From Sphingomonas sp. CROZ-RG-20F-R02-07 (GTDB lineage Bacteria; Pseudomonadota; Alphaproteobacteria; Sphingomonadales; Sphingomonadaceae): a stretch of 64,000 bases of DNA. The stretch covers positions 186,001-250,000 of the forward strand of contig NZ_JAKNQJ010000004.1 of NCBI RefSeq assembly GCF_022662335.1. The letters are read 5' to 3'. Positions 10,598 through 52,975 of this stretch are shown in pieces. Numbering within the stretch: position 1 is the stretch's first letter; each line of letters starts with the position of its first letter. A model generated the notes under the pieces. It saw nothing but the letters and a program-made list of their open reading frames with translations, ran no database searches and was not told where the DNA came from. The position numbers and the translations under genes are program-made.

Positions 10598-10608
10598 GAA
10601 CGGCAGCG

Positions 10609-11910: not shown

Positions 11911-11914
11911 CGCC

Positions 11915-16471: not shown

Positions 16472-16472
16472 G

Positions 16473-18359: not shown

Positions 18360-18366
18360 GCGGCGC

Positions 18367-19002: not shown

Positions 19003-20699
19003 TTCGCCACCGGCGTCTTCAGCTGCGGATGACGTGCATAGAGCAGCTTCTGTTGCAGGATCGAGATGCAGTTGGTGGTGATCCAATAGACCTGCAGCCC
19101 GACCGCGAACGGCGCCATCACGAACATCAGCACCCAGGGCATGAACGCGAAGACCTGCTTTTGCGTATCGTCCATCGGCGTCGGGTTCAGGCGGAACTGG
19201 AAGAACATCGAGATGCCGAGCAGGATCGGCACGACACCGATTGCGATCATGTGCGGCGGCGTGAAGGGCAGGAGGCCGAACAGGTTCACCGGCGTCAGCG
19301 GATCGGGCGACGACAGATCCTTGATCCACAGGACGAAGGGCTGGTGCCGCATCTCGATCGTGATCATCAGCACTTTGTAGAGCGCGTAGAAGATCGGCAC
19401 CTGGATCAGCGTCGGCAGGCAGCCGGCGAGCGGATTGACCTTCTCCTGCTTGTAGAGCGCCATGATCTCCTGCTGCTGGCGCGGCTTGTCGTCCTTGTAG
19501 CGTTCCTGGAGCGCCTTCATCTTCGGCTGGATGGCGCGCATCGCCGCCATCGAGGCGAACTGGCGCTGCGCGATCGGGAACATCACCGCGCGGATCGTCA
19601 GCGTCAGCAGGATGATGGCGAGGCCGAAATTGCCGACGATGTGGAACAGCCAGTCGAGATAGGTGAAGATCGGCTTTTCGACGATTTCGAAGTAACCCCA
19701 GTCGATCGCCTTGTCGAATTTCGGGATACCCGCGGCTTCGTAGCGCTGGAGCGTCTTCACTTCCTTGGCGCCCGCGAAGAAGCGCGTCGTCTGGGTGACG
19801 GCTTTGCCCGGCGCGAGCAGCTTGGGGCTGAGCGTGTAATCGCCCTGATAGGTGGTGTTCGCACCGGCGCGGAACTGGCCGTCGAACGTCGCGCCCTGAT
19901 CGGGCACCAGCGCGGTCAGCCAATATTTGTCCGCAAAGCCGAGCCAGCCGCCCTGCGTCGAGAAATGCTGCGGCGCGCTGTCGAGATCCTTGAACTTGTA
20001 CCCGTAATCCGCGCTGCCCTCGTGCACCGAGGTGGGGCCGGTATGATTCTGCCAGGTGGAGGCATCCTTCGAGACGCCCGACCGGTTGACGAAGCCGTAC
20101 GGCGCAACCGGCACGGGTGCGGCGCCGGCGTTCAGCACCGTTTGCTGCACCGTGAACATATAGTCGGAATCGACCGACAGCGTGATGCGGAAGCGCTGGC
20201 CGGTGGCGTTCGCCGCGTCGAGCGTCACGGGATGGCCGGGCGACAGCAGCGTTCCGGTCGCCTTCCACACCGTGTCGGCGGACGGCGGCTTCAGCCCCTC
20301 GTCACGCCAGCCGAATCCGGCGAAATAGGCTTCGGGCGCGCCGGCCGGGGAAAGGAGGCGGATCGGCGCGGAGTTCTTCGCGATCGTTTCCTTGTAATCC
20401 ACCAGAACGAGATCGTCGATCCGCGCGCCCTTCAGGTTGAGCGAGCCCCGGATCTTGGGCGTCTCGATCCGGACGCGGGGCGTCTCGCCCAGCACGACCG
20501 CGCGGTCGCGCATCGCGGCGGGGCCGTCGGCGGTGGGATCGGCGTTCGGGTTGGCGACGATCTTCGTCTTGCCGTCCGCGATCTTGGTCACGGGCGGATT
20601 GGCGGTCGGGAAGAATTTGCCCTGGATCAGCGGCCAGCCGAACAGGATCAGCGCCGCGATCACCGCGAACACCACGAAGTTCTGACGATCGTCTTTCAC
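18999..20699 (-). CDS. yidC: Membrane protein insertase YidC
   Basis: A 566-residue Gram-negative YidC/Oxa1 protein. An N-terminal membrane anchor (NFVVFAVIAALILFGWPLI) is followed by the large periplasmic P1 domain (about residues 60-340). The conserved insertase core begins at FGLAIILLTLTIRAVMFPIA, with cytoplasmic coiled coil QPKMKALQERYKDDKPRQQQEIMALYK and later membrane helices up to the C-terminus. The positively charged groove residue is the Arg of LTIRAV. The start is GTG 20699. It lies 16 bp after yidD and overlaps engB. Confidence 0.95.
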   Translation of the reverse strand: MKDDRQNFVVFAVIAALILFGWPLIQGKFFPTANPPVTKIADGKTKIVANPNADPTADGPAAMRDRAVVLGETPRVRIETPKIRGSLNLKGARIDDLVLVDYKETIAKNSAPIRLLSPAGAPEAYFAGFGWRDEGLKPPSADTVWKATGTLLSPGHPVTLDAANATGQRFRITLSVDSDYMFTVQQTVLNAGAAPVPVAPYGFVNRSGVSKDASTWQNHTGPTSVHEGSADYGYKFKDLDSAPQHFSTQGGWLGFADKYWLTALVPDQGATFDGQFRAGANTTYQGDYTLSPKLLAPGKAVTQTTRFFAGAKEVKTLQRYEAAGIPKFDKAIDWGYFEIVEKPIFTYLDWLFHIVGNFGLAIILLTLTIRAVMFPIAQRQFASMAAMRAIQPKMKALQERYKDDKPRQQQEIMALYKQEKVNPLAGCLPTLIQVPIFYALYKVLMITIEMRHQPFVLWIKDLSSPDPLTPVNLFGLLPFTPPHMIAIGVVPILLGISMFFQFRLNPTPMDDTQKQVFAFMPWVLMFVMAPFAVGLQVYWITTNCISILQQKLLYARHPQLKTPVAK

Positions 20700-22800: not shown

Positions 22801-22931
22801 GGGGACGGCTGTGAACATCCATGTTCTCGCCGCGCCCGCCGAAGAACGATTGCACTCGATGGACCTCCGTTGCACCGAGATATTTTAAGATGGCCAGTTG
22901 CGTTGCTCATGACGATGCTTTGTTAGTATCG

Positions 22932-24221
22932 ATGGAACGAAAGCGGGGAACAGTCTCTGGCGGCCCTGATGATCCTGCGCGCCCTTGGCCGATGAGAGTT
23001 GATCCGGCCGAAGGAGAGGCGCTCTCGTCATGGTTAAGCCGCATCGCTTTGTTATACAAAGTCGCCTACCCAGATCTGTTAGAACGATATCTTGGCGTTA
23101 GTAAAAATGACGGTGATATCAATCTTACAGAAGACCTAAACCTCATCAATCGGATCGCCCAGTTGTCCCGGGTCCCATTCGATAAAGTCAGAGCGATGAC
23201 TTTCCGAGGGATGGTGCCGTTATCCTTTGGAAAGGGACTTGGCAGTTTCGCTGATTACGTTTTAGAGCAGACGGTGTTGCTTAGAAGCTGGGGGCGTTGG
23301 GAAGGGATAGACGGCCAAACTTCCGACTGGCAGCCGTGGATATCTCATGGTCTGGTGCGTGCATGTCGGAAATGCGCCGCTTCAGATCAGGTCATCTTTG
23401 CGAGGTTGGAATGGTTACTGCCGATCATGCTGTCGTGTCCTAAACACGGATGCTATCTGGACGAGTGTTTTATCACCCCCGGCCGCTTCATCTCCTGGAA
23501 GGTGGCTCTACCGGGCAAGCCTAGTGCAGCAACACGGTTGCTCTACAAAACTACGTATCAAGCCATCGTTAGTGGCGTCACAACCGACTATACAGGGGCA
23601 AAGCCAGCGGCACTTTGGTTTAGAAAATTACGAACAGTCATCGAGGAGCTTGCTGCTCCAGCCTATGTTCATGGGGACGACCGAAAGATCATAAAGGCGC
23701 TTTGGTCTAATATCGGCGAGGACGCTCCATACGCAGTCCGCAAAACCTTTGAAAATATGAAATGGCAGGACCAGCTTAAAATATTACAAGTTGCAGCTTT
23801 CTCCATGAAGTACATGGGCGAAATGCTAATTTACCAGAAGAAGACTCTGCGTAAACAAGAGGCGGTCCGACGCGCTAAAGATATCAATATATATTTGGCT
23901 GGCGCAACGTCGTCGTATAGCTGGCAAAAGAATCTAGGCTACGGAGGCTATAAACGGGCAGTAGTCGATCCGATCTACGCCTCGTTATTACGATCAACCC
24001 TTTACTGGTATGATGATGTAAGTATCGAGCGTGCTTGCAAAGTGGAAGAATATCTAACGGCAAGGGGTGTGACGAGATATGCTATCCGGGAGATCAGGCT
24101 TGTTGAGCAGAAAGGCAATCATGAATCCTCCATCATCTACTTCGGCCTGCCAGAAGATGGCTCTTGGAGCGATGTGAGGAGCGGAATCGCTAACAATCGC
24201 ATCCTGCGAGGGATGGACTAA
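22932..24221 (+). CDS. tniQ: TniQ/TnsD-family transposition protein, left-end copy
   Basis: About 429 residues. The TniQ domain starts PAEGEALSSWLSRIALLYKV, and zinc-binding pairs follow (ACRKC, near residue 145, and SCPKHGCYL). The C-terminal part beyond the domain is about 100 residues longer than the right-end TniQ. TniQ proteins recruit the TniA/TniB machinery to a target; the longer TnsD type reads a specific attachment site. Because the element lies in comM, this copy is a reasonable candidate target selector (inference). ATG 22932 is preferred; in-frame ATGs at 22890 and 22821 would reach into the end repeats. The gene is AT-rich compared with everything downstream. Confidence 0.75.
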   Translation: MERKRGTVSGGPDDPARPWPMRVDPAEGEALSSWLSRIALLYKVAYPDLLERYLGVSKNDGDINLTEDLNLINRIAQLSRVPFDKVRAMTFRGMVPLSFGKGLGSFADYVLEQTVLLRSWGRWEGIDGQTSDWQPWISHGLVRACRKCAASDQVIFARLEWLLPIMLSCPKHGCYLDECFITPGRFISWKVALPGKPSAATRLLYKTTYQAIVSGVTTDYTGAKPAALWFRKLRTVIEELAAPAYVHGDDRKIIKALWSNIGEDAPYAVRKTFENMKWQDQLKILQVAAFSMKYMGEMLIYQKKTLRKQEAVRRAKDINIYLAGATSSYSWQKNLGYGGYKRAVVDPIYASLLRSTLYWYDDVSIERACKVEEYLTARGVTRYAIREIRLVEQKGNHESSIIYFGLPEDGSWSDVRSGIANNRILRGMD

Positions 24222-24288
24222 CTTCAAAACCGTCCGCAAGTGCAAATCGCCTCCGTCCTTTAAGGTATACCCTTCATGGATGGATCGA

Positions 24289-24321
24289 TGCGACACAAAA
24301 TCGCGTCTCAAAACGGTCGCA
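24289..24321 (+). promoter_or_regulatory. Candidate resolution (res) subsite upstream of the resolvase gene
   Basis: The 172 bases between tniQ and the resolvase gene contain an inverted pair TGCGAC (24289-24294) and GTCGCA (24316-24321) around an AT-rich centre. A further TGCGAC lies near 24365. Resolvases of this family bind paired inverted sites just upstream of their own gene and act on such a res region. The same stretch must carry the promoter of the resolvase gene, and probably of the methyltransferase that overlaps it. Confidence 0.4.
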
Positions 24322-24393
24322 AAATGAATTGTGGAGCATATCGCGCGGATGGTCTAGAGCGTTCTGCGACACTTCACGCGGCCAGGATCGATC

Positions 24394-24966
24394 ATGGGCG
24401 AACTTTACGGATATGCGAGGGTTTCGACCGCCGGCCAGGACCTCACATTGCAGCGTTCTGCCTTGAAGGCCGCTGGTTGCGCGGTGATCCGGGAAGAAAA
24501 AGCGAGTGGGACTTCGCGGCAAGGGCGGCAAGAACTAGGCATCCTGTTAGAATTCCTGCGACCAGGGGATACGCTCGTGGTCACCCGCATCGACCGGCTG
24601 GCCCGGTCGATGCGGGATCTCCAAGACATCGTTCACTCGTTGAAGGATCGAGGGGTCTCGCTCCGCGCGACAGAGCAGCCGATCGATACATCGTCCGCTG
24701 CGGGGAAGGCGTTCTTGGACATGCTTGGCGTGTTCGCGGAGTTCGAGACTAACTTGCGACGCGAAAGACAGATGGAGGGGATCGCCGATGCCAAGGCGAG
24801 GGGGGTGTACGCCGGCAAAGGCCGTAAGCCGACCGTGGACGGCACGGAGGTTCGTAGGCTGAGGGCCGACGGCGAAAAGCCGTCGGCTATAGCACGCCAG
24901 CTCAATATTTCCCGAGCCTCGGTCTATCGGCACCTTGAAGGTCTTGCACAAGGCGCAAGCGCATGA
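24394..24966 (+). CDS. tniR: Serine resolvase (TniR-like)
   Basis: A 190-residue small serine recombinase. Catalytic Ser11 lies in YARVSTAGQD, the active-site arginines in VVTRIDRLARSM, and the conserved block in FAEFETNLRRERQMEGI. A C-terminal helix-turn-helix reads SAIARQLNISRASVYRHL. It resolves the cointegrates made by replicative transposition. Its last codons overlap the methyltransferase start (ATGA at 24963), so the resolvase and the cargo operon are probably co-transcribed and translationally coupled. Confidence 0.93.
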   Translation: MGELYGYARVSTAGQDLTLQRSALKAAGCAVIREEKASGTSRQGRQELGILLEFLRPGDTLVVTRIDRLARSMRDLQDIVHSLKDRGVSLRATEQPIDTSSAAGKAFLDMLGVFAEFETNLRRERQMEGIADAKARGVYAGKGRKPTVDGTEVRRLRADGEKPSAIARQLNISRASVYRHLEGLAQGASA

Positions 24967-26288
24967 AGTATAGCTTTGCCGACTTGTTTGCTGGTTGCGG
25001 CGGCCTCTCGTTGGGCTTGTCGCAGGCTGGACTTCAAGGGAAGTTCGCGATCGAGCGCGATCCAATGGCGTTCGAGACGTTTGCTACCAATTTTATCGAC
25101 CGTCGTACGCCGGGTATATCTTTCGACTGGCCAGCATGGCTCGAGCCGGAGGCATGGGACATCGAGCATCTGCTCGCCCAGCATAAGACTGACCTAATCG
25201 GATTACGCGGAACAATTGACGTTCTAGCCGGTGGACCACCATGCCAGGGGTTTAGTTTTGCGGGTCGGCGCGTCGAGGGTGATCCGCGTAACCTGCTCTT
25301 TGAAAAGTACGTAAACGTCGTCGAAGCCCTCCAGCCGCAGGCCCTCATCCTGGAGAACGTCCCCGGCATGCGAGTGGCCCATGCGCGCAGGAACGTCATT
25401 ACGCTCCCGATCGCGGGCGAGCAGGCTGAGAAGCCCAAGTCCTTCTATGACAAGCTCATCGATAGCCTCGACGTAGCTGGTTATAAGATGGAGGCCATGC
25501 TGGTCGACTCTTCGCGGTTCGGAGTACCACAGCGCCGCTCCCGTCTTATCGCCGTAGGCATCCGGAAGGACCTGTGCGAGTGGCTCGATGGCGGGATTGC
25601 CCGCATGTTCGTGCTGCTAGAAGAGGCTCGTGTAAATCAGCTCCGCGAGTTGGGCCTTCCCGAGGTCGTCAGTGCATCCAGCGCATTGTCGGATCTCGAA
25701 ACCAATGGCCGGGAGATGATCGATTGCGTTGACCCGGAATCCTCTAGGGGCTTCCGCGAGATCAAGTACGGCGCACCGACGACGCCCTACCAACGGCTCA
25801 TGCAGGCTGGGCTCGAGGGCGGCATGAATAGCATGCGACTAGCCCGGCATCGTGACGATGTCCGGGAGCGGTTCGGTCGCATCCTTGCAGAATGTCGCAA
25901 GGGCGTCCGCATGAATGACGAAAGTCGCAAGACGTACGGACTAAAAAAGCACCGCATCTATCCGATGGCTAGCGGGGAGCCCGCACCCACGGTCACGACC
26001 TTGCCGGACGACATCCTCCACTATTCCGAGCCGCGCATCCTGACCGTACGCGAAACCGCTCGATTGCAGTCTTTTCCAGATTGGTTCGAGTTCAAGGGAA
26101 AGTTCACGACAGGGGGTGACCGCCGGACCAAGGAGTGCCCGCGGTACACGCAGGTTGGAAATGCGGTCCCGCCGTATCTGGCCAGGGCGATTGGCGTTGC
26201 GGTGCGCACCCTTCTGGAGGAAGTCGCACTTACGAAGTCTGTGTTCGGCGACGATGCAGGGGATTTACCGGTCGCAGCGACGGCCTAG
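24963..26288 (+). CDS. DNA (cytosine-5-)-methyltransferase
   Basis: A 441-residue C5-cytosine methyltransferase. Motif I is ADLFAGCGGLSLG (residues 6-18), motif IV is GGPPCQGFSFAGRR with catalytic Cys94, motif VI is ENVPGM (131-136), motif VIII is SRFGVPQRRSRLI, and motif X ends RYTQVGNAVPPYLA. All motifs for transfer of a methyl group from S-adenosylmethionine to cytosine C5 are present. Its recognition sequence cannot be read from the protein. It is the first gene of a tightly packed run ending in vsr, and its start overlaps the resolvase stop. Confidence 0.93.
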   Translation: MKYSFADLFAGCGGLSLGLSQAGLQGKFAIERDPMAFETFATNFIDRRTPGISFDWPAWLEPEAWDIEHLLAQHKTDLIGLRGTIDVLAGGPPCQGFSFAGRRVEGDPRNLLFEKYVNVVEALQPQALILENVPGMRVAHARRNVITLPIAGEQAEKPKSFYDKLIDSLDVAGYKMEAMLVDSSRFGVPQRRSRLIAVGIRKDLCEWLDGGIARMFVLLEEARVNQLRELGLPEVVSASSALSDLETNGREMIDCVDPESSRGFREIKYGAPTTPYQRLMQAGLEGGMNSMRLARHRDDVRERFGRILAECRKGVRMNDESRKTYGLKKHRIYPMASGEPAPTVTTLPDDILHYSEPRILTVRETARLQSFPDWFEFKGKFTTGGDRRTKECPRYTQVGNAVPPYLARAIGVAVRTLLEEVALTKSVFGDDAGDLPVAATA

Positions 26289-26296
26289 GGGGGATA

Positions 26297-28408
26297 ATGA
26301 CGGGGGAAGTCATCGTAACGCCGTTCCCGGCGGAGCTCGTTAACTGGGCGGGCAACCGCTCCGGTGGAGTGCGGCGCCTGTTTGATGCCGAGAGCGGCCG
26401 GCCAGGCAAGGCAGTCTTTGAAACGAACTTATTGCACCGGCTGGAAGCATGGGCCGGATCGATCGCCACGTCGCCTGGCAGTGTCCCGCGCATATTGTTG
26501 CTTGTTGGCGGACCTGGGAACGGCAAGACCGAGGCGATCGAGTCTACGGTAGGTTGGCTCGACGCTGCGCTTGCCGCCAACGGCAAGCTCGCCGAAGAAC
26601 TCAGGAAATCCTTCTTTCCGCCAGAAGGGACCGCCGTCCCGCGCCTTGTCAGGGTCGATACGCGGGAGCTGGGGCTGGGGTCGCGCGGCCTCGGCCTGTC
26701 GATCGTCCAAGACGCGTCGGCCGTAGTTGGCGCAACGGGAAAGCAAGCTGCTCAGCTCCTGCTGGATGAGCTCGACGCGGTGCAGGCGGCGGGTCAGGAT
26801 GAGGCGTACCTGTGCTGCGTGAACCGTGGCGTGCTGGACGATGCCCTCATCGACGCGATCGATCACGAAAGGGAGGGTCCACGACGTCTGCTGGAGGCAG
26901 TAACTCGCGCTGTCAGCCTCGCACCCGACGCCCCCTCGTGCTGGCCGCTCGCGGGGTTTGCCGACGTTGCGGTGTGGCCCATGGACGCTGAATCGCTGCT
27001 GCTATCTCCGGTTGCTGGCGGGGAAGAGCCTGCACGCAGCTTGCTGCGCACCGCCTTGGAAGAATCGATGTGGCCAGCTTCGGGATCGTGTGCAGGCGGT
27101 GCCTCCTGTCCGTTCTGTGGAAGCCGCGAGCGGCTTGCTCGCGAACGCGAAGAAGCATCCCTCATGCAGATTCTTCGATGGTTCGAGGTCGCGAGTGGAA
27201 AACGCTGGAGCTTTCGCGACCTTTTCTCGCTTGCATCCTACTTGCTTGCGGGTCATCGGGTTTCCCCCCGCGAAGCGAGCCTCGAACCATGCGAGTGGGC
27301 TGGAAAGCTGGCCGGGCTTGACGAGATCGCTCGTCGGGGTGGGAAGCCGGCCAAAGAGCAATCGACGGCAATCTTCCAGTTGGTATCGGCACAGTACCAA
27401 CATGCACTCTTCCACCGCTGGGAGCGCGACGCTGGTCCTGCACTATTGCGCGAGATCAAGGAGCTCAAGCTCGACGACGACAACACCGCAATGGGCCTTC
27501 AATGGTTCCTGTCATCGCGGCGGACGGCATACCTACCCGCGATGATCAGCAGCGCCCTCGAAGGTGTTGCCGAACTTCTCGACCCAGCCCTTACCGATCC
27601 GAACACCGAAGTGCAGGCTACTAGGAATACGCGCTTCGCACTTCGCGAGCTGGATGTCAGGTTCAGCCGATCCGTGCTGGAAGGGCTCGACTTCATTCGA
27701 AAACTGCACGTGCTTTCCAGGCTCGAAGTGGACCTGCTTGAACGTCTGGCCAAGCTGGACTCCGAGCTTTCGGTCGGCGGTGTCCGTCGAAGACGGCCGG
27801 CATCTGCCACGAACGTCCAGCGTTTCATCCGGGATTTCGCGTGCCGCCTTACGCGTCGTGCGCTTGGTACCCGGGCTGCCGCAGTTCTGGACGCGCCGAT
27901 ACTTTCCGATTTTCAGCGGGTCTTGGAAGACACCGCTGGCGACGACTTGTTCGATGTCGCCCAGGAAGTCGAGCTGCTCCTTAACCGAAACCAGGATTTC
28001 GAGATCTCGCTGACAACGACCTTTGGCCAGCCCTTGCCGCCGATGATCCGGCGCGCAACCCTCGTCGTACCTTCCCGATCGGTGCAACCACTCGATGCGG
28101 AAAAGGCAGGCAGGCCCGCGTCTCCCATTTGCTTCCTGAAGGTGGGTGACGGTCGATCGGGTCAGCCCATTGCCCTGACATATGATCTCTTTAAGGCCGT
28201 CAAGGAATTGGAAAAGGGCATGTCGGTCGCATCGCTCCCTCGTGCTGTGCTTGCGTTGCTAGACACGACCCGGGCACGCCTGTCTGGCCCCATCGTCAGG
28301 GACAAGCTGGTTCTAGACCGCGCGCGCATCCGCATCGGGTCTAGCGGAACATCTGTCGTGCAAAGGCGATCCGGCTTTGCTGTTCGCAAGGACGGGGGCA
28401 GCCGATGA
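26297..28408 (+). CDS. P-loop ATPase with zinc-knuckle-like Cys cluster (DptF-like position), methyltransferase-linked operon
   Basis: A 703-residue protein starting at ATG 26297 with a GGGGGG ribosome site; an open frame begins further upstream but would lie inside the methyltransferase gene. The Walker A loop is GGPGNGKT at residues 71-78, with LLLDELDAV and YLCCVNRGVL as Walker B/sensor-like blocks. A cysteine cluster CAGGASCPFC near residue 270 may bind zinc. The remaining 400 residues are mostly helical, with no family I recognise. It overlaps the next gene by four bases. By position and size it could play the part of DndF/DptF, the ATPase of phosphorothioate-dependent restriction; this is analogy, not shown homology. 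Confidence 0.7.
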   Translation: MTGEVIVTPFPAELVNWAGNRSGGVRRLFDAESGRPGKAVFETNLLHRLEAWAGSIATSPGSVPRILLLVGGPGNGKTEAIESTVGWLDAALAANGKLAEELRKSFFPPEGTAVPRLVRVDTRELGLGSRGLGLSIVQDASAVVGATGKQAAQLLLDELDAVQAAGQDEAYLCCVNRGVLDDALIDAIDHEREGPRRLLEAVTRAVSLAPDAPSCWPLAGFADVAVWPMDAESLLLSPVAGGEEPARSLLRTALEESMWPASGSCAGGASCPFCGSRERLAREREEASLMQILRWFEVASGKRWSFRDLFSLASYLLAGHRVSPREASLEPCEWAGKLAGLDEIARRGGKPAKEQSTAIFQLVSAQYQHALFHRWERDAGPALLREIKELKLDDDNTAMGLQWFLSSRRTAYLPAMISSALEGVAELLDPALTDPNTEVQATRNTRFALRELDVRFSRSVLEGLDFIRKLHVLSRLEVDLLERLAKLDSELSVGGVRRRRPASATNVQRFIRDFACRLTRRALGTRAAAVLDAPILSDFQRVLEDTAGDDLFDVAQEVELLLNRNQDFEISLTTTFGQPLPPMIRRATLVVPSRSVQPLDAEKAGRPASPICFLKVGDGRSGQPIALTYDLFKAVKELEKGMSVASLPRAVLALLDTTRARLSGPIVRDKLVLDRARIRIGSSGTSVVQRRSGFAVRKDGGSR

Positions 28409-29916
28409 CGCTCGCAAAATTCCGCGAAGAGCCTTGGCGCACGTCCCATCGCGCCTACCAGGACTCGGCGCTCGCCATGTCACCGGCGCCGGAATATGCC
28501 AGCTCGGAGGTAATCCTGTCCTCCTTGTACCGTCATGCCGGCTTGGATGGCGCGAGCGAACGCACCGTTCCGCAGCGGGGCAGGGACCTCGACAAGGAAG
28601 TTCAGTGGTACCGGGATAGGTCGCGCAAGCCAGAAGCAGCCGCGCTGGATGCAGACACCTTCCACACGCTGCTCCACTCCGTGCTCGAGAGCCCAAAACT
28701 TCCGAACCAATCCTCCAAGCGGTTCGTGCAGGTTACGCCGCTTGTACCACAGGCCGCCGTATTTTCGGGATCGGCGCGCCTAAGCAGCAATTCCTGGCCT
28801 GCAGGTGCATTGGTCAGGCGGATGGTCTGGCTCGGATCATCGGACGCGACGGCAGCAGCAGAGACCTGGCGGTCCTTGTTCGAAGCCCTGTCGGTTGCCG
28901 ACAACGACGACATCTTCGCCCGCTTCCTCCAAGCCGAGATCGAGGCCTGGTCCCCGGAACCGGCTTGGGGGGCCGTCGAGCCGGACGAACAATCAACGCT
29001 GGATCCAGAAGACCGGGAGGGGCTCGACTACCCAGCGCGGCGATTTGTGCGCGACCTTGGCTCCATCATCGATGCCAAGAATACGATGACGCGCCGGCAG
29101 TGGACGAGCCTGCTCGAAGCGATCGTCAGGCTCGCTGCCGTGGCGCACGTCACCTGGCTTTGCGACGTCCACGCTAAGTCGTGGGAGTGCATCAGGGCAG
29201 CTCTCGACGGCAGTGGACCAAGCGACGCGGCGGCTGCGCGCGCGACGATGTACCCGAGGGCGTTCCAGTTCCTTTCGTACGGTGATCGAGCGCTTCCGGG
29301 CATCAAGGATCGTGCCTCGGCTTTCCTGCAGGCGAGGCTCGGTCTCAACGCAGCACTATGGGCGCTGGAAGCCGCAGGCGTGGAAGGCGCGTCGCTTTCT
29401 TCGGCCGCAGGAGTGGCGGACGTTTGCATCCGCCTTCGCGAACACGCCAGCAAGGTGGAGTCGACCGGAGTACGCAACGTCCTCGCCGATGTTTCCGAGC
29501 GCGAAACGCGAACGCTGCTATGCAAGAAGGGGATCGGCTCGAATATCATGGAGTTCGCGCGCCACGTCCTTGGCCAGCGCCAAGCCGCGAATCCCGTCCT
29601 GCGTGGGTACGATCAGGGCTTCTCCCTTCGCAAGCGCGGCACCAGCAATTCGAGCCCGTGGGTTGTTGGGCTGGGACCCGTCAGCGTGCTTGCGCTCGTG
29701 CACTGCTCGTTGGCTGGGACGACCGGCCCGCGTTCGGTACGGCGCCTTTCCCAGCACCTCGCTGGATATGGGGCGATCGTCGACTATCGCGACATAGCAA
29801 CGAACGATCTGGGTCATCAGCTTCGAATGCTCGGCTTGGTGCTTGATAGCCCCGACGCAGAAAGCGGCATGCTGCTCGTGCCTCCCTTTCCCACCCGCCA
29901 AGAAGAACCTGCATGA
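28405..29916 (+). CDS. Protein of unknown family in the methyltransferase-HerA-Vsr operon
   Basis: A 503-residue protein that I do not recognise. It has no signal peptide, membrane segment or nucleotide-binding loop. The C-terminal third has a conserved look: GYDQGFSLRKRGTSNSSPWVVGLGP, then VLALVHCSL, and the end GMLLVPPFP. It overlaps the ATPase gene before it and the HerA-like gene after it (ATGA at both joins), so it is almost certainly a stoichiometric partner of those proteins. Position and size invite comparison with DndG/DptG, but I see no motif that proves it. Confidence 0.75.
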   Translation: MTLAKFREEPWRTSHRAYQDSALAMSPAPEYASSEVILSSLYRHAGLDGASERTVPQRGRDLDKEVQWYRDRSRKPEAAALDADTFHTLLHSVLESPKLPNQSSKRFVQVTPLVPQAAVFSGSARLSSNSWPAGALVRRMVWLGSSDATAAAETWRSLFEALSVADNDDIFARFLQAEIEAWSPEPAWGAVEPDEQSTLDPEDREGLDYPARRFVRDLGSIIDAKNTMTRRQWTSLLEAIVRLAAVAHVTWLCDVHAKSWECIRAALDGSGPSDAAAARATMYPRAFQFLSYGDRALPGIKDRASAFLQARLGLNAALWALEAAGVEGASLSSAAGVADVCIRLREHASKVESTGVRNVLADVSERETRTLLCKKGIGSNIMEFARHVLGQRQAANPVLRGYDQGFSLRKRGTSNSSPWVVGLGPVSVLALVHCSLAGTTGPRSVRRLSQHLAGYGAIVDYRDIATNDLGHQLRMLGLVLDSPDAESGMLLVPPFPTRQEEPA

Positions 29917-32900
29917 ACCGCCTAGCATCTGTCATCGCGGATCTGATCCGCGACAAGCTCACCCAATCGCCGGGCGGCGATGAAGGCGAGGTGCGGTTGA
30001 TCTTCCACGGTCCACAGAAGGAGATACTTGGCGAAGTCTTCGAGCTTTTGACCACGGCGACTGACGTCGGTCCTCGGGTTCCCATACTGCTCCAGCTGCC
30101 AAGCCTACCAGCAGGCGAAGAGAACCCGCCCGTCGGCGTTTCTGGGCGTTGCGACGATACCCATCTGCTGAACCTCCGCAACTCGCCTTCCCAGCCAACA
30201 TTCCTGGCGCTAGTTCCTCCCGGCCAGCACAGCATGCGCTCCGTAACGTCCACTACGGACGAGTTTGGCGTTGCCGCCGCGAACAACGGTGGGAACGTAC
30301 CGTTCGAGGATTGGTGGGCGGACGAATTCATCCAGGATTTGGTCCGCGTTGGCGTCGGTCAGGCCGGCGTCCAGGATCAGCAGCAGCGCGACGACGCACG
30401 TACCCTGATCGGCAAGGCCGCTTCGGCAGCCGACGAGATGGATCCAGAGCGGACGCAGCGTGCTGCTGCCTGGAAGGTACTCTCGCGGCTTTTCGCCGCG
30501 GTGCCGGGGCTCCCCGGCTTCACTTCAGGCCAGCAAGTCAGCCTTGCGTGCGGCATGCCACCGATGCGCGACGGCTTACTATCTTCTCGCGAGCAGGTGG
30601 CGGTCTTGGAAAAGATTGCCGACGCAATGTCCGACGGCTTCGGTCCCGGCATCCGTCGAGCACAAGAAAACGCTCCCGTCGATGACATCCGCCACCTTGA
30701 TGCGTTTCTCGCCCACCTGCGCGAGGCATGCGATCTCCCGACTGCGTTCGAAAGGGCGACGGCCGCTTATTACGCGCCTGGTAGCGGGCTGGACATGCCC
30801 GTGGCACCAGATTGGTGGCGGGTCCTGACGACTGAGAAGTGGTCCGAATTGCTCACCGAGGATGCTACCGCGCAAGGCGATATCCGCATGGGCTGTTCGA
30901 ATGCCCTCATCCCGCTTGGAAAGGGCATGCCGATCCTTGTCGAGGGCAATGTCGCCCTCACGTTCGAGACGGTTGGGCCGGATGCCTCGGGCACCGTGGT
31001 CTCGATCGAGCGAGGCAAGGGCAACAAGCTCGGGGAAGTCAAAGTTGGCGACGAGGAAGCGGTATTCCTCGACGAGTCACCACCCGGCCATAAGGCCCCG
31101 ATTCGATACGCGGCATCTGCCGATGGCTTCAAGCCCGGCGCGATCAAGGTAGTCTCACTTGCAACATGGCAGCCGGGTATCTTTGTTGCGTCGCGGCTTG
31201 CTCGCAAGCTGACCCCGCCCCGTAAGCCAACTCGGCGCGTCAAGGGCGCCCCTGAGTACGAGACGAGCCTCGTCGTGCCCGGTGGCGGGCGCTATGAATT
31301 GTTGGTGTTTACCTCGCCGGGCATCGTGTTGGATGCCGCCGCCAAGGGCACTGCAGACGACGCTCAAGACCGCGTCGACGCAGTCCAGCAACTCGTCGTC
31401 CGTCCAGTGCGAGATGGCTTCCACCAAATTGAGGTCGAGGCCGAAACAAATTACCAGGTCGACATCGGCTTCAGTCGGCCGGTTACCGACGGCTCGACGT
31501 CGCACGAAGCCTGCCGGGTCTTCCTCGTGGTCGAGGATGTTGTCGAGCAGGGCTGTCGGAGCGAGTTCGAGCGACTGATCCGGGCCAATCGACGCGCGAT
31601 CGAGCCATCCGAAGCCAAGCCGGTCGTCCAGTTGAACCGGAGCGCACGCTCGTCGAGCTTGCAGGATTGGATGCTGTCCGAGGATTCTGCCGGGCGTTCC
31701 TATCTTCCGATCGTACTCGCCGACGACTACGTCGATGCCTGGGTCCAACCTGTATGGGGCACAGGCACCGGCCCAATTTTTTCAAATGGACGCTTTCTCC
31801 AGGATCCGCGTCCGGATGCCGCTGAGTTTCAGCCGCCATCGGGCTTCGTCGAAGCTAGGCAGAAATTGGCTGCGCGCATCCGCGGCACCGGCGACCAAAC
31901 CGGATTGATGGAATCTGCCGAGTTGGGGAAGTGGCTCGCTACCGACGAGGAATTCCGCGCCGTCGTCGAACGGTACCTTGATGCGTACCAGGCTTGGCTA
32001 GCCGCCGAACCGGACGTGGCCTGCTGGGTCGACGTAGGCGTCATCACGTCGCTGGAGGATGATCGCAGGACGATTTCCCGCGTCCCTGACGCCATAATCC
32101 TGTCCCCGCTTCATCCGCTACGCCTCGCTTGGCATGCAGTTGCCCAGAGGGTGCTTCTTGAAGCCGAGGCGGGCGGAAACCCGTGCCCCGCGGTGAGCGT
32201 CCTTGACCCAGATTGCGTGCCGGACCTCCTGACGCTGTCGCTTCGATCGCCAGGCGGAATCGAGAAGGTCGACTTTCTCGCTGTAGAGAATGGAACGGAT
32301 TATTGGTCGGTTTTGTGGAACGGGGAGAGGCTCGGCCGTCTTCCTAGCCGATCAAGGATCGCCCCGTTTGGCGACGGGTTCGGCATATCGGTTGGCGGCA
32401 TCTCCGTCGGTTTCAGCGCGGCTCAGGTGGGGCGCGCCTTGGAGGACGTGTCCGGGCTCCTATCGGCCAAGCCCACGATTGGCGTCGTGGTAGCAAGTGC
32501 CGGCGGCACGACGGACGCCTGCAACGAGGGTCTCATCAACTGGTGTGCGGACCGATATCGCGACGGAGATACCCGCGCCCCGCGTCAAGCTGCCGGCCCG
32601 CGTCTCGTCGAGATCTACGACCACCGTGACGGTGACTCTCGGCCCGACGATGCCACGATCGCGAATTTGTCCGAAGATACCCGCAATAGCGTTCGATGGT
32701 TCGAGGGCCAGCCAGCCTCCGCCCGGCCGGACCTAGGGATCATCGCGCAGCTCGACATGTCCGAGCCAAGCGCCGCGCCGGTTGCTGGGCGGTCGCCGCT
32801 TGGCCATGGCGGCCTGCTCCGCCACAGGGTCCGGCGCCAACTCCCGGGAGCGTTCCTCAGCGAGACGCGCCAGTCGCTGGCTGGGTCGGCCTCTGGCGAT

Positions 32901-35384
32901 GTCCTGGCCGACAAGGTCGCGGCCTGCGTCGGAACGATGGAAAGCCTCGGCGACCGACGCACTGGTATGCGGTTCGCACCGAACGTGAACGCCGTCCGCG
33001 ACATGCTCGAGACGCGCCGGACCGACTTCGTCGCGGTATCGTCCTCGGCAATCGATCCTGCCTGCTTCCTGGGTGGATGGCTGGAGGATGCATACCTCTG
33101 GGACTACGACATGCCCTCCTATTCGCACCGGGCGGGCGACACCAACGGCTACTACCTCTTGTCGCGGGTCAAGCAGGCGGACCGCGAGGCGTTGTCAAAG
33201 GCGCTCAGTCGCCTGCCGGGGTGTGCGGCGATCGAGCACGAACAAGTCCAGGATGTCCTGCTAGAGATCGCGCGGCGCGGTATCCCCACGATCCGGGGCT
33301 TGGCCGGTGACAATGCCGGTGCCACCGGTGATCTCGGCCTCTTCGTGGCCGTTCGACTGCTCCAAGATCGTTTTCGCCTCTCGAACATCGGCGAGAGTCT
33401 CGTCCCTGTCATCGACGGTACAGGCGATGAAGTTACGGTCTGCGTCATCGTACCGGTCGACCCGTTCCGCGGGTATTTTTCCGACCTGGCCAAATCCCTT
33501 GGCAAGGATCGGAAGGATGCTTCCCTTTCCCGCCCTGACCTTCTGGTGGTCGGCGTGAAGCTCGGTGCGGAAGGCGTGCGGATCCACCTCACGCCCGTCG
33601 AGGTGAAATGCCGCCCCGGCACGGTATTCCCGCCTTCGGAGGTCAACGACGCTCTCGAACAAGCGCGTACCTTCTCACGTCTTCTTGCGAACATGCTCCC
33701 ACACGACGACCAGCCCGTGGCGTGGGCGCTCGGGTTCCAGCACCTGCTCCTCTCGATCATCGGCTTCGGCATGCGGGTCTATAGCCAGCATCCTGATGTG
33801 GTAGGACGCGAAGCTCAGTGGTCATCGCTTCACGAGCGGATTGCGTCCGCCATACTAGATCCGCGACCCTGCGTGTCAGTCGACCAGCGCGGCCGGCTCA
33901 TCATCGTGGACGACAGCCCCCGCAGTGGCGTGCGGGACCGGGACGAAGATGGCTTTGACGAAACCCTTACAATCGGGAGCGGCGATGCTGGCCAGATCGT
34001 CTCAGGGGACCCGCTTGCCTTCTATGACAGCGTTCGAGCTCGGGTCGGACAATGGGATCTCTTCCCGGCAAACGAAGCGTTCACGACGGGTCTCGTGCAG
34101 CCGCACGCCGATCTCGAAATTGAGGACGTAACGGATGAGTCGTTACTCGTGGCAGGGACTGAAGACAACGAGCCGGATGCCACGCCAAAGGTGCCACCTT
34201 CGGTGAATACCCCAGGACCGGCCGATATTGACCCTACCGTTGGGTCTACCGGGATCATCCTGTCCATCGGTACCACGGTAGACAGTTTCCGACCCGGCGA
34301 AGTGCAGCTGAACATATCCGATACTCGATTAAACCAGCTAAACATGGGCGTCGTTGGCGATCTCGGCACGGGTAAGACACAGCTACTGAAGTCGCTAATC
34401 ATGCAGATTTCAGACGCTTCCGAAGCAAATCGTGGCATTCGACCGCGATTCCTGATTTTTGACTACAAGCGAGATTACAGCAGCCCAGATTTCGTCAAGG
34501 CAACCGGCGCGCGTGTCGTTAAGCCCTATCGATTACCGCTAAACCTGTTCGACACGAGCGCCATCAGCGATGCGGCCGCACCGTGGCTCGATCGATTTCG
34601 CTTCTTCGCGGACGTGCTCGACAAGATCTATACCGGGATCGGCCCCGTCCAGCGCGACAAGCTAAAGAAAGCGGTGCGCGCCGCCTATGAAGCTTGCCTG
34701 CCAGACCAGCAGCCCACACTTTATGATGTCCACTCGGCGTACGCCGAGCTTCTAGATGGCAAGTCAGACTCGCCGATGGCAATCATCGACGATCTGGTCG
34801 ACATGGAGGTTTTCGCCTCGAAGACCAGCGAAACCCAATCGTTTGACACCTTTCTCGATGGTGTCGTGGTAATCTCACTTGACGCTTTGGGCCAGGACGA
34901 TCGCAGCAAGAACATGCTCGTCGCCGTCATGTTGAACATGTTCTACGAAAACATGCTGCGCACGCAAAAGCAGCCGTTCATCGGCAGCGATCCGCAATTG
35001 CGCGCGGTCGACTCTTACCTGCTAGTCGACGAAGCTGATAATATTATGCGCTACGAGTTCGATGTATTGCGCAAGTTGTTGTTGCAGGGGCGCGAGTTTG
35101 GGACGGGGGTAATCCTCGCGTCTCAATACCTACGGCACTTTAAGGTCAATGCGACCGACTACCGCGAACCACTCTTGAGCTGGTTCGTACATAAAGTCCC
35201 GAACGTCACGCCCGCCGAGCTTTCAGCTCTTGGGCTTACGGGCGGTGCCGCGGAAATGGCGGAGCGGGTCAAGTCGCTCCAAGTCCACCAGTGCCTCTAC
35301 AAGTCATTTGACGTGCCGGGCGAGGTGGTCCGGGGCCTACCGTTCTTCGAGCTGGAGGCGCGCCGCGAGAGATCGGAAAAGTAG
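29913..35384 (+). CDS. 1823-residue PD-(D/E)XK nuclease-HerA/FtsK-type ATPase
   Basis: A very large protein with at least two readable modules. A PD-(D/E)XK nuclease site lies near residues 1208-1232: Pro1208-Asp1209 in RPDLLVVGVK, then Glu1230-x-Lys1232 in PVEVKCRPG. At the C-terminus is a HerA/FtsK-like ATPase with Walker A GDLGTGKT (1482-1489), the strand FLIFDYKRDYSS, and Walker B YLLVDEAD (Asp1706, Glu1707). A further block, ILSPLHPLRLAWHA, lies near residue 730. The first 700 residues are of unknown type. The architecture suggests an ATP-driven DNA translocase carrying its own nuclease, like DndH/DptH in size and module. It overlaps the gene before it by four bases and ends five bases before vsr. 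Confidence 0.8.
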   Translation: MNRLASVIADLIRDKLTQSPGGDEGEVRLIFHGPQKEILGEVFELLTTATDVGPRVPILLQLPSLPAGEENPPVGVSGRCDDTHLLNLRNSPSQPTFLALVPPGQHSMRSVTSTTDEFGVAAANNGGNVPFEDWWADEFIQDLVRVGVGQAGVQDQQQRDDARTLIGKAASAADEMDPERTQRAAAWKVLSRLFAAVPGLPGFTSGQQVSLACGMPPMRDGLLSSREQVAVLEKIADAMSDGFGPGIRRAQENAPVDDIRHLDAFLAHLREACDLPTAFERATAAYYAPGSGLDMPVAPDWWRVLTTEKWSELLTEDATAQGDIRMGCSNALIPLGKGMPILVEGNVALTFETVGPDASGTVVSIERGKGNKLGEVKVGDEEAVFLDESPPGHKAPIRYAASADGFKPGAIKVVSLATWQPGIFVASRLARKLTPPRKPTRRVKGAPEYETSLVVPGGGRYELLVFTSPGIVLDAAAKGTADDAQDRVDAVQQLVVRPVRDGFHQIEVEAETNYQVDIGFSRPVTDGSTSHEACRVFLVVEDVVEQGCRSEFERLIRANRRAIEPSEAKPVVQLNRSARSSSLQDWMLSEDSAGRSYLPIVLADDYVDAWVQPVWGTGTGPIFSNGRFLQDPRPDAAEFQPPSGFVEARQKLAARIRGTGDQTGLMESAELGKWLATDEEFRAVVERYLDAYQAWLAAEPDVACWVDVGVITSLEDDRRTISRVPDAIILSPLHPLRLAWHAVAQRVLLEAEAGGNPCPAVSVLDPDCVPDLLTLSLRSPGGIEKVDFLAVENGTDYWSVLWNGERLGRLPSRSRIAPFGDGFGISVGGISVGFSAAQVGRALEDVSGLLSAKPTIGVVVASAGGTTDACNEGLINWCADRYRDGDTRAPRQAAGPRLVEIYDHRDGDSRPDDATIANLSEDTRNSVRWFEGQPASARPDLGIIAQLDMSEPSAAPVAGRSPLGHGGLLRHRVRRQLPGAFLSETRQSLAGSASGDVLADKVAACVGTMESLGDRRTGMRFAPNVNAVRDMLETRRTDFVAVSSSAIDPACFLGGWLEDAYLWDYDMPSYSHRAGDTNGYYLLSRVKQADREALSKALSRLPGCAAIEHEQVQDVLLEIARRGIPTIRGLAGDNAGATGDLGLFVAVRLLQDRFRLSNIGESLVPVIDGTGDEVTVCVIVPVDPFRGYFSDLAKSLGKDRKDASLSRPDLLVVGVKLGAEGVRIHLTPVEVKCRPGTVFPPSEVNDALEQARTFSRLLANMLPHDDQPVAWALGFQHLLLSIIGFGMRVYSQHPDVVGREAQWSSLHERIASAILDPRPCVSVDQRGRLIIVDDSPRSGVRDRDEDGFDETLTIGSGDAGQIVSGDPLAFYDSVRARVGQWDLFPANEAFTTGLVQPHADLEIEDVTDESLLVAGTEDNEPDATPKVPPSVNTPGPADIDPTVGSTGIILSIGTTVDSFRPGEVQLNISDTRLNQLNMGVVGDLGTGKTQLLKSLIMQISDASEANRGIRPRFLIFDYKRDYSSPDFVKATGARVVKPYRLPLNLFDTSAISDAAAPWLDRFRFFADVLDKIYTGIGPVQRDKLKKAVRAAYEACLPDQQPTLYDVHSAYAELLDGKSDSPMAIIDDLVDMEVFASKTSETQSFDTFLDGVVVISLDALGQDDRSKNMLVAVMLNMFYENMLRTQKQPFIGSDPQLRAVDSYLLVDEADNIMRYEFDVLRKLLLQGREFGTGVILASQYLRHFKVNATDYREPLLSWFVHKVPNVTPAELSALGLTGGAAEMAERVKSLQVHQCLYKSFDVPGEVVRGLPFFELEARRERSEK

Positions 35385-35389
35385 TCGAG

Positions 35390-35821
35390 ATGGTGGATAC
35401 CCTCACGCCAGCACAACGATCGGAACGCATGTCGCGCATCCGATCGACGAACACGAAACCTGAAGTCGCCTTGCGAAAGGCACTCCACCGCTTGGGATTT
35501 CGCTTCCGACTGCATGGGCGCCGGCTTCCAGGGAAACCGGATATTGTCCTGCCTAAGTATCGCACGGCCATCTTCGTACACGGTTGTTTTTGGCACCGAC
35601 ATGCGGGGTGCAGCATCGCGACCACTCCCAAGTCGAACACCGAATTCTGGGTAGATAAGTTCGATCGCAACACGGCACGGGACGCAATTAAGCGAGCCCA
35701 GCTCGAGGCCGATGGATGGAACGTTATAGTCGTCTGGGAATGTGACCTGAAGACCGTTGAGAAAGCTCGAGCGGCGGCCTCTATAATCAGCGACGAGGTC
35801 CGGTCAGCATCAAGCGGCTAG
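35390..35821 (+). CDS. vsr: Very short patch repair endonuclease Vsr
   Basis: A 143-residue Vsr. Glu25, Asp51, His64, Trp68 and His69 fall at the same numbers as the catalytic and mismatch-binding residues of E. coli Vsr. Cys66 and His71 would be zinc ligands, and the fold signature PDIVLPKYRTAIFVHGCFWH is intact. Vsr nicks next to T in T:G mismatches that arise when 5-methylcytosine deaminates, so it protects the genome against mutation caused by the methyltransferase at the head of the operon. It begins five bases after the HerA-like gene and closes the five-gene run. Confidence 0.93.
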   Translation: MVDTLTPAQRSERMSRIRSTNTKPEVALRKALHRLGFRFRLHGRRLPGKPDIVLPKYRTAIFVHGCFWHRHAGCSIATTPKSNTEFWVDKFDRNTARDAIKRAQLEADGWNVIVVWECDLKTVEKARAAASIISDEVRSASSG

Positions 35822-38369: not shown

Positions 38370-39644
38370 TTGCGCGTCGCGGAGCTTGCGGTAGCCGATA
38401 TCAAGCGTAAGCTCGCGCCGATGGGGCCCATCGCTCTCCTCGGTGAGATATCCGACATCCAGACGGTTAACCGGCGCAGGCGTGTCGAAAGCGCAAGCAG
38501 GACCGCGCCGAACTTCACGCCGCTCGAATTCCTCGACACACGGGAAAGGGGATTGTCTCGAATTTTGGCATGGCTCCTCAACCCGCGTGGGTCGCACGAG
38601 CAGGGGTCCGCCTTCCTCGAGGAGTTCACGCGCTGGCTCGAGCTTGACGATGAATGGCGCCGCGACCTCGACGACGCGTGGGTGATCCTCGAGGCGCCGA
38701 CGATCGCGATCACGAAGATCGGCTACCTCGACGTGCTCGTGCGGCTTAAGGGCCGCATGCTCGCGATCGAGAACAAGCCGACGGCGACCGATCAACCAGA
38801 GCAGGTCCGCCGCTACCTCGCCGACCTCTCATCGCGGCGTCTCGACGCGCACTGTCTCGTCTACCTCTCCGGCACGGGAAGCGCGCCCTCGGACGAGAGC
38901 GTCGGCGCGGACGAGTTCGGAGCGGCGGTAGCCGCCGGGACGCTCCGCGTGCGCGGCTACGCGGCGATCGCCGACTGGATGGACGCCTGCGCTCCGCGAT
39001 GCGTCGCTCCGACCGTGTCGGCGATGCTGGCCGGCATCAAGAGTCACGTACTGAAGGAGTTCTCGGGAGTGACGGACCTAGGCGAGGTGGAGGAGATCGG
39101 GGACGCGGTGCTGTCCTCGCGGGACCGGCTGGAGGCTGGTTTGGCGCTTCTGGAGGCTGAGGCCTCTATCAAGGAGAGGCTGCTCGCGACGCTCGTGACG
39201 GAGGTGGAGGAACTCGTCCGTGGAAGGCGGGGATGGCGGGTCCGACGGTCGGACATCGGGTTATCAAACAACAGCGGCGTAGTCATCGGCCTGACGCCCA
39301 ACGCCGCCGTCGGGTTCGGAATCCAGTTCGACAAGTCCGGGCACCGGGTGCTGTTCTACGGCGTGAACAGCATGGACGACCGACCGCTGCCCCGGGGAAC
39401 GAAGAGGGTCATGCAGGAACTCATCGGCGTGAAGACCGGGACGGTAGCCTGGCCGGTTTGGAAGCAGGTCGGGCCCAACGACAAGTTCTTTGCGATGCCG
39501 AAGGCTACGGGACGGGAGTTCTGGCTAGGCCTGAGCGACGGGTCGGTCGCGCGCATGCTCTTCGGCTACGTCGAGGAGGTCGAGCGGACGCTCAGGCGCG
39601 AGAAGCTGCTCGTGACGGTTAAGGAGCGCGTCCTCGCCGAGTGA
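38370..39644 (+). CDS. PD-(D/E)XK nuclease superfamily protein
   Basis: Up to 424 residues. The nuclease core is GYLDVLVRLKGRMLAIENKP, with Asp121 and Glu134-x-Lys136, followed by the conserved QVRRYL helix. Upstream, the block RERGLSRILAWLLNPRGSHEQG is typical of the PD-(D/E)XK nuclease family found in defence islands. TTG 38370 is the first possible start; ATG 38421 is a reasonable alternative that removes 17 residues and keeps the whole domain. No modification or partner gene lies beside it, so it may act with another cargo gene or alone. Confidence 0.75.
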   Translation: MRVAELAVADIKRKLAPMGPIALLGEISDIQTVNRRRRVESASRTAPNFTPLEFLDTRERGLSRILAWLLNPRGSHEQGSAFLEEFTRWLELDDEWRRDLDDAWVILEAPTIAITKIGYLDVLVRLKGRMLAIENKPTATDQPEQVRRYLADLSSRRLDAHCLVYLSGTGSAPSDESVGADEFGAAVAAGTLRVRGYAAIADWMDACAPRCVAPTVSAMLAGIKSHVLKEFSGVTDLGEVEEIGDAVLSSRDRLEAGLALLEAEASIKERLLATLVTEVEELVRGRRGWRVRRSDIGLSNNSGVVIGLTPNAAVGFGIQFDKSGHRVLFYGVNSMDDRPLPRGTKRVMQELIGVKTGTVAWPVWKQVGPNDKFFAMPKATGREFWLGLSDGSVARMLFGYVEEVERTLRREKLLVTVKERVLAE

Positions 39645-48009: not shown

Positions 48010-48012
48010 GGG

Positions 48013-52890: not shown

Positions 52891-52975
52891 GCGGGTGTGG
52901 TGGAATTGGTAGACGCGCCGGACTCAAAATCCGGTTCCGCAAGGAGTGTCGGTTCGAGCCCGACCACCCGCACCA
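52891..52975 (+). tRNA. tRNA-Leu (anticodon CAA)
   Basis: 85 bases. The acceptor stem GCGGGTG pairs with CACCCGC, with discriminator A and an encoded CCA end. The D-loop region is TGGAATTGGTAGACGCG, the anticodon loop ACTCAAAAT gives CAA, a long variable arm (TTCCGCAAGGAGT) marks a class II tRNA, and the T-arm contains GGTTCGAGCCC. It reads UUG codons. Confidence 0.95.

Follow-up and report, generated by a model that had tools for sequence, protein, structure and literature searches.

Which DNA modification would restrain a restriction complex encoded between a cytosine methyltransferase and a Vsr repair endonuclease? The question is raised by a five-gene operon of Sphingomonas sp. CROZ-RG-20F-R02-07 (contig NZ_JAKNQJ010000004.1), found in the stretch of 64,000 nucleotides analysed here, which is called the window. 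The genes are named M (C5-cytosine DNA methyltransferase), F, G and H (the middle three) and V (Vsr). All five open reading frames (ORFs) are present on the plus strand in the order M-F-G-H-V, with a gap of 8 bases between M and F, 4-base overlaps (ATGA) at F-G and G-H, and a gap of 5 bases between H and V. An initial annotation of this DNA had described five tightly packed genes with 4-base overlaps or gaps of 5-8 bases, and the junction letters bear this out; its description of a C5 methyltransferase, a P-loop F with a Cys cluster, a PD-(D/E)XK-HerA protein and Vsr likewise agrees with Pfam and the motifs. Judged from sequence, we give a probability of about 75% that the operon is a restriction-modification (R-M) system related to DndFGH and SspFGH, equipped with a C5 methyltransferase and Vsr, in which 5-methylcytosine instead of phosphorothioate serves as the self mark.

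The two outer genes belong to well-known families. M (24963-26288, 441 amino acids, aa), the predicted modification enzyme, matches PF00145 with an expectation value (E) of 1.4e-53, lies above the cut-off of TIGR00675 and shows the PPCQ and ENV motifs. V (35390-35821, 143 aa) is a Vsr-family mismatch endonuclease (PF03852, E 1.3e-32; TIGR00632 above cut-off) with FVHGCFWH and WEC motifs. For F and G, no Pfam family scored above cut-off and PADLOC gave no match, and F was also missed by the TIGR03238 and PADLOC DndF models.

Using profile comparison (hhalign), F (26297-28408, 703 aa) was recognised as a P-loop protein and DptF/SspF homologue. Over residues 61-322 it matches DptF with a probability of 80.6 and E 1.3e-5, and residues 610-693 add another collinear match at E 0.0012; a narrower DptF profile gave a probability of 11.7 and E 0.0025. 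The closest match is to F proteins encoded beside sspBCD-like genes (probability 95.6, E 1.2e-8), a single alignment of 508 columns over residues 39-653. As controls, F was compared with DptG or DptH (E 0.17 or worse), and all off-diagonal comparisons gave E 0.091 or worse, or 0.023 or worse with narrower profiles. The F-DptF alignment pairs the Walker A motif, the acidic residue of strand 2, the Asn at the Walker B position (NRG of F with NxG of DptF) and an Arg of the lid region. These are the features described for DndF, which has a normal Walker A, an acidic strand-2 residue, Asn replacing Asp at Walker B and, in its enlarged helical lid, a conserved Arg and sometimes a Zn-binding insert (PMC10853773).

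A search of 5.8 billion proteins returned 1058 relatives of F from 7995 scored candidates. The Walker A motif GGPGNGKT (residues 71-78, 26507-26530) is invariant in alignments of close and of diverse relatives, and in the 35 diverse aligned sequences the strand-2 DA and the NRG at the Walker B position (N176, R177 and G178, within VNRG at residues 175-178, 26819-26830) are invariant as well. The Cys cluster (C265, C271 and C274, 27089-27118), a predicted Zn-binding insert, is invariant among 27 close relatives, and C265 and C271 are kept at 90% or more in the diverse set. When simple patterns were applied to all 66 F sequences of the relatives described below, Walker A and NRG were each found in 65, the lid motif in 62, and the strand-2 motif and the Cys cluster in 60 each, one locus (L049) holding a broken copy. 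The AlphaFold2 model of F has a predicted local distance difference test score (pLDDT) of 89.2.

G (28405-29916, 503 aa) is a predicted DNA-binding subunit. The top structural match of its predicted fold is DndG (7exx), a triple winged helix. Its C-terminal region, residues ~420-495 (29662-29889), appears winged-helix-like from its secondary structure (helices 425-435, 446-454 and 468-475, strands 479-481 and 489-491), and in the structure comparison many short winged helix-turn-helix sequences align onto it. Against the sspBCD-linked G, hhalign gave E 0.023.

H (29913-35384, 1823 aa) is a DptH-like predicted nuclease-translocase. PADLOC assigns it to DndH at E 4.5e-69, the best stretch (1476-1814) being the HerA part, and Pfam places a HerA/TrwB-like P-loop at residues ~1472-1557. 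The HerA/FtsK-type ATPase domain (residues ~1444-1815, 34242-35357) matches DptH with a probability of 100 and E 6.7e-48, or E 1.8e-42 with a more divergent DptH profile, and the solved C-terminal domain of DptH (PDB 7es4) matches at E 5.8e-43; its ASQ, the Gln sensor, is conserved in at least 95% of aligned sequences. Matches confined to HerA are reported to have inflated earlier DndH counts (PMC10853773), so likeness to DptH outside this domain matters. The PD-(D/E)XK nuclease region (residues ~1190-1260, 33480-33692) aligns to DptH 1075-1134 with 35% identity at E 0.0032, a match that is not separately listed with the more divergent profile. Its motif RPDLLV...PVEVK occupies residues 1207-1232, with RPDL and P.EVK in at least 95% of 60 sequences. 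The strict EVK pattern occurs in 55 of 62 H sequences, and four of the seven misses, on re-inspection, do have EVK; H is truncated in L047 and L064. A segment resembling SPxHPLxLxxH also aligns to DptH (E 0.018). In the N-terminal part of H, where the inactive SNF2-like, beta-sandwich, target-recognition and inactive Dam domains of DndH were sought, weak collinear segments were obtained at 3-92 (E 0.046) and 636-907 (E 0.0011).

Taken together, homology to DndFGH/SspFGH is well supported by sequence comparison for F and H, and is indicated for G by its modelled fold. The initial annotation had offered DndFGH as an analogy, which the profile, motif and structure comparisons raise to homology. 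It had also been unable to match the gene set to a named system. This no longer holds for the FGH family, which can be assigned: the nearest relative of F is the sspBCD-linked F, and that of the HerA domain is DptH; profiles thus place the protein families, and not the five-gene set, among named systems. The window shares with DndFGH (DptFGH) the F-G-H order, an F with Asn at Walker B, the predicted G fold and a collinear nuclease and HerA in H. It differs in that its host lacks dndC and has a C5 methyltransferase and Vsr, and in that F lies below detection by DptF models; F also exceeds the proteobacterial DptF proteins compared by ~150-170 aa and carries a Cys-rich insert.

SspFGH is reported to have no sequence homology to DndFGH, but to include an FtsK-like end as well as a protein with a Walker A motif (PMC8092258). 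The comparison was extended through DUF4007 genes, for which 398 genomes of the phylum gave 10 matches. In the surrounding 20 kb, extended for four of them, FGH-sized triplets were found beside sspBCD-like genes at L109, L110 and L112, and a set with a DptH-like H at L111. The triplets are called SspFGH-like by position and size, and not by direct comparison with the published V. anguillarum proteins. They have the same gene order as the window operon and similar sizes (610-639, 510-574 and 1803-1856 aa), and the window F is nearer to their F than to DptF. They differ in having a sulfur module where the window has M, and the HerA domain of the window H resembles DptH (E 1.8e-42) more closely than it resembles their H, which the window H matches mainly in the HerA part (E 2.8e-6, with a profile of three sequences). 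Since the sspBCD-linked F matches DptF (E 1.5e-4) and the sspBCD-linked H matches DptH (E 1e-6), the three FGH sets look like one superfamily in which the window represents a third lineage. At L111 (820-11848), sspBCD-like genes lie near a DptH-like FGH with an F of 1377 aa, a mixed partnership of modification and restriction.

Does the gene combination recur? Two exact peptide patterns were searched in 84,980 species genomes and gave 66 loci, a lower bound, several of them on truncated contigs. They fall in Pseudomonadota (52), Bacteroidota (4), Planctomycetota (3), Verrucomicrobiota (2), Gemmatimonadota (1) and Lentisphaerota (1), with three having no phylum in the title. F was found in 66 loci, G in 65, H in 62, a C5 methyltransferase in 63 and Vsr in 41, and the initial concern that the five genes might rarely co-occur is answered by these counts. 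M lies directly upstream of F in 55 loci, within 1.5 kb downstream of H in seven and elsewhere in one (L049). This last locus is a decayed-looking Arenimonas copy (8103-19065), in which F, G and H are fragmented and lie next to ORFs of Vsr and M. The catalytic GGxPCQ is present in 59 of 63 M sequences; of the exceptions, L046 has GAPPCQ and the other three (L013, L032 and L050) are split or truncated. Among the three loci where M was not seen, L047 and L066 end inside the operon, while L051 is complete. The control set of seven canonical dptFGH loci (17-33 kb each) contains neither a C5 methyltransferase nor Vsr; seven further dptFGH loci of 2-5 kb were left out of this count as too short. The host genome (3.9 Mb) has just two C5 methyltransferase loci, the window copy included; against this background, the recurrence of F, G and H together and of a C5 methyltransferase in 63 of 66 loci is not a matter of chance.

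The operon also appears to move. F occurs in one of 196 genomes of the host's order, the window's own, and is therefore patchy there, and host families are intermingled on the FGH tree, suggesting horizontal transfer. Four plasmid records contain F, and both that were examined (L071 and L072) have an annotated cytosine methyltransferase adjoining FGH; viral contigs gave two loci, and phage records one short fragment. The Pseudoalteromonas plasmid L071 (7707-20385) has the C5 methyltransferase behind H, which is annotated in two pieces, and an S-adenosylmethionine (SAM) methyltransferase and an HNH protein before F.

Genes for phosphorothioation are mostly absent from carriers. Profile searches of the host genome found no DndC, no TIGR03238 DptF and no DUF4007. 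We take SspB to carry DUF4007, which was accordingly used as the Ssp marker; the domain is also found in BREX-related systems. Genomes of 48 of the 66 relatives, some of them incomplete metagenome assemblies, were searched, and both dnd plasmid controls were positive. DndC was over cut-off in one (G011, L012) and DUF4007 in another (G036, L043), leaving 46 of 48 with neither. Weaker DndC matches, all with E of 1e-3 or better, were seen in G022 (L024; 130 bits, under cut-off) and in G001 and G036 (~20 bits). Methylation as the self mark is favoured because M is present in 63 of 66 loci and in 0 of 7 canonical dptFGH loci, while phosphorothioation markers are mostly missing. The suggestion in the initial annotation that cytosine methylation replaces phosphorothioation is thus supported as regards gene content; the self-marking itself we infer.

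The repair gene was found to alternate. In five of the 25 loci without Vsr (L053, L054, L058, L059 and L060), an HhH-GPD glycosylase of the MutY/MIG family is encoded beside H, and Vsr and the glycosylase occur together in 0 of 66 loci. Neither gene was seen in 20 loci, several of which are truncated. The four intact glycosylases have 220-257 aa and their family is confirmed by Pfam; in the L060 copy, a stop interrupts the matched stretch. T:G mismatches are the substrate of MIG-type glycosylases. The L053 and L054 proteins match MutY as well as, or slightly better than, 1KEA ('Possible G-T mismatches repair enzyme'); the listed full-length MutY chains are longer (352-369 aa). One site reads QRT in L054, L058 and L059, nearer to the RRT of 1KEA, and a MutY-like QQT in L053, so that a MIG-like reading of this site fails as a rule for all copies. 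With the matches and site residues mixed in this way, the HhH proteins are only putatively T:G glycosylases. The role given to Vsr in the initial annotation, limiting the mutational cost of methylation, is backed by this alternation, with repair itself a prediction.

How would such a system work? M would methylate host DNA. F, G and H would assemble into a complex that binds DNA through the winged helices of G and the N-terminal part of H; the HerA domain of H would translocate on DNA and its PD-(D/E)XK domain would nick or cut. The mark set by M on host DNA would repress the FGH complex, as phosphorothioate reportedly does with DndFGH, and unmarked phage or plasmid DNA would be attacked. Deamination of 5-methylcytosine would yield T:G mismatches, which Vsr, or the HhH glycosylase at some other loci, is predicted to repair. 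The model builds on DndFGH, reported as a 2:2:1 complex with translocation-coupled nicking, whose ATPase and translocation are repressed by phosphorothioates on self DNA and which harms cells without the mark when unrestrained (PMC11662687). SspFGH is likewise reported to damage unmodified DNA (PMC8092258), and single deletions of dndF, dndG or dndH are reported not to abolish restriction fully (PMC12707154). Gating of this FGH lineage by 5-methylcytosine would be the simplest transfer by analogy, and a methyltransferase placed first and Vsr last fit an R-M operon with its repair cost covered.

The same outline would hold if H or G read the unmethylated site of M, with M and FGH sharing one target sequence, an idea to which we give a limited though appreciable chance. 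Target-recognition domains have been described in DndH (PMC10853773), and the motifs IX-X of M are similar between its types (54-70% identity), with a TTGG insert there in 59 of 63 M sequences (all except L061, L063, L064 and L067). The target-recognition parts of M, however, are only 15-34% identical between types (lower for L061), and comparison with solved relatives did not reveal the target site. Single linkage of 67 methyltransferase ORFs at 45% identity gave one group of 53 and nine small groups. Pairwise identities of F, G and H correlate at 0.95-0.98, against 0.55-0.58 for M with any of them (1769 pairs), and nine M-type labels on the FGH tree of 58 loci require 10 changes, where the minimum is 8 and the shuffled mean 11.0. 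L003 and L005 have FGH proteins 91-92% identical, yet the only C5 methyltransferase in view at L005 is of another type (34% identity), convergent and placed after H at a distance of ~340 bases; a methyltransferase of this type also stands at L044, directly behind H and in the same orientation. The FGH differences between L003 and L005 show no regional excess over same-type pairs, save in a linker before HerA that is variable in all pairs. Exchange of M was considered as proof that FGH ignores sequence, and this was rejected because most types share motifs IX-X and the TTGG insert, so that equal specificity across types is conceivable. We hold as a tentative idea, somewhat short of even odds, that the operon is a third FGH branch reading 5-methylcytosine in general rather than in a fixed sequence, with swappable methyltransferases and an exchangeable T:G-repair gene that limits cost.

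Exchange of M could also mean that FGH is a stand-alone anti-invader complex, of the kind proposed for DndFGH, sensing other cues, with M and Vsr a passenger pair, for example an addiction module, that gates nothing. In Caulobacter, loss of a cytosine methyltransferase leads to DNA damage that depends on a Vsr-like protein, so that cells depend on a solitary methyltransferase (PMC12907096), and V may in the same way also stabilise M. The complete FGH of L051, a verrucomicrobial locus (6605-20328) where H is followed by an HNH nuclease, stands in 22 kb that contain neither a C5 methyltransferase nor a Vsr or HhH gene. It can be cited for a stand-alone complex; as it lacks the methyltransferase and both repair genes alike, we count it for methylation as the self mark. 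A stand-alone role appears improbable, given that some type of C5 methyltransferase accompanies 63 of 66 loci (the search covered this class of methyltransferase) and that DndFGH and SspFGH without modification reportedly harm cells (PMC11662687, PMC8092258); exchange of M that keeps its chemistry suggests that a C5 methyltransferase is needed. Several defence nucleases target 5-methylcytosine, and FGH could by this precedent attack methylated invader DNA in a type IV-like manner. This is very unlikely, as the C5 methyltransferase, co-transcribed with FGH, would expose the host's own DNA to attack, and Pfam searches of F, G and H at E 0.1 found no SRA-like or known 5-methylcytosine-reader domain. 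A role in transposition instead of defence, as part of a surrounding Tni-type transposon, has the setting of the window in its favour: a TniQ gene and a serine resolvase gene (22821-24966, plus strand) precede M, the end of the resolvase gene overlapping the M start by 4 bases, and TniQ, TniB and TniA genes lie at 47032-50681 (minus strand), near a tRNA-Leu (52891-52975). It is scarcely credible, since homologues of TniA, TniB and TniQ occur in the flanks of 0 of 66 relatives (up to 10 kb, E 1e-10), a resolvase accompanies L011 alone, and the operon is also found on plasmids.

If the FGH complex is indeed gated by 5-methylcytosine, evolution can switch its control from a modification of the DNA backbone to one of the bases. 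Gating by phosphorothioate is known for DndFGH and SspFGH, and in a recent reappraisal DndFGH is viewed as able to stand alone without a modification of its own; an FGH lineage that brings its own C5 methyltransferase, seen here in four phyla or more, would be a third and genetically simple case. As one gene would set the mark, its sensing would be testable by swapping one methyltransferase. The alternation of Vsr and HhH would suggest that the repair of deamination damage has been selected as a component of a defence operon.

Other known systems resemble the operon in part. For CxC-DndE (Pbe-type) systems, a cytosine methylase has been proposed as a substitute for phosphorothioation, but with an ABC ATPase, DndE and an HKD nuclease-helicase in place of FGH, and in the sections consulted cytosine methylases are reported with CxC-DndE and none with FGH (PMC10853773). 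C5-methyltransferase-Vsr loci with GHKL/HK-like ATPases (PMC8011034) likewise pair a C5 methyltransferase with Vsr close to a defence-type ATPase but have another effector, and HerA, FtsK and Dnd occur 0 times in the text. PADLOC, run for the comparison with BREX, DISARM and MADS that the initial annotation had proposed, did not recognise the core proteins as any of these: H matches mad8 in the HerA domain only (E 2.5e-11, against E 4.5e-69 for DndH), and for M, DrmMII scores lower than the generic models of type II methyltransferases. A search of open-licence full texts gave no account of FGH joined by a C5 methyltransferase and Vsr, which is weak evidence as most subscription journals lie outside them.

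Two side observations concern FGH relatives on other replicons. An archaeal plasmid of Natronorubrum aibiense (L078, 1-7190) has annotated dptF, dptG and an FtsK-like H beside two Dam-family adenine methyltransferases, so that FGH may have a further partner in another kind of base methylation. On Vibrio plasmids, proteins encoded near mobI (L073, 12111-15047; L074, 10183-13194) have C-terminal ends 42-46% identical to the HerA of E. coli DptH, and these could possibly be relatives of a captured HerA.

Within the window, a Tni-type transposon island may carry the defence genes as cargo. A Tn402/Tn5053 end consensus had 0 matches, and the 25 longest inverted repeats suggest no element ends. The resolvase overlapping M was considered as a part of the system and dropped, as it occurs in one of 66 relatives. 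Downstream of the operon, a PD-(D/E)XK protein (38370-39644, plus strand) matches the PADLOC candidate PDC-S26 (E 3.1e-29). It is followed by another PD-(D/E)XK protein (40047-42695, plus strand) and a UvrD-type helicase (42626-46105, plus strand), which together resemble an AddAB pair; a helicase encoded elsewhere in the host genome is 30% identical to the latter.

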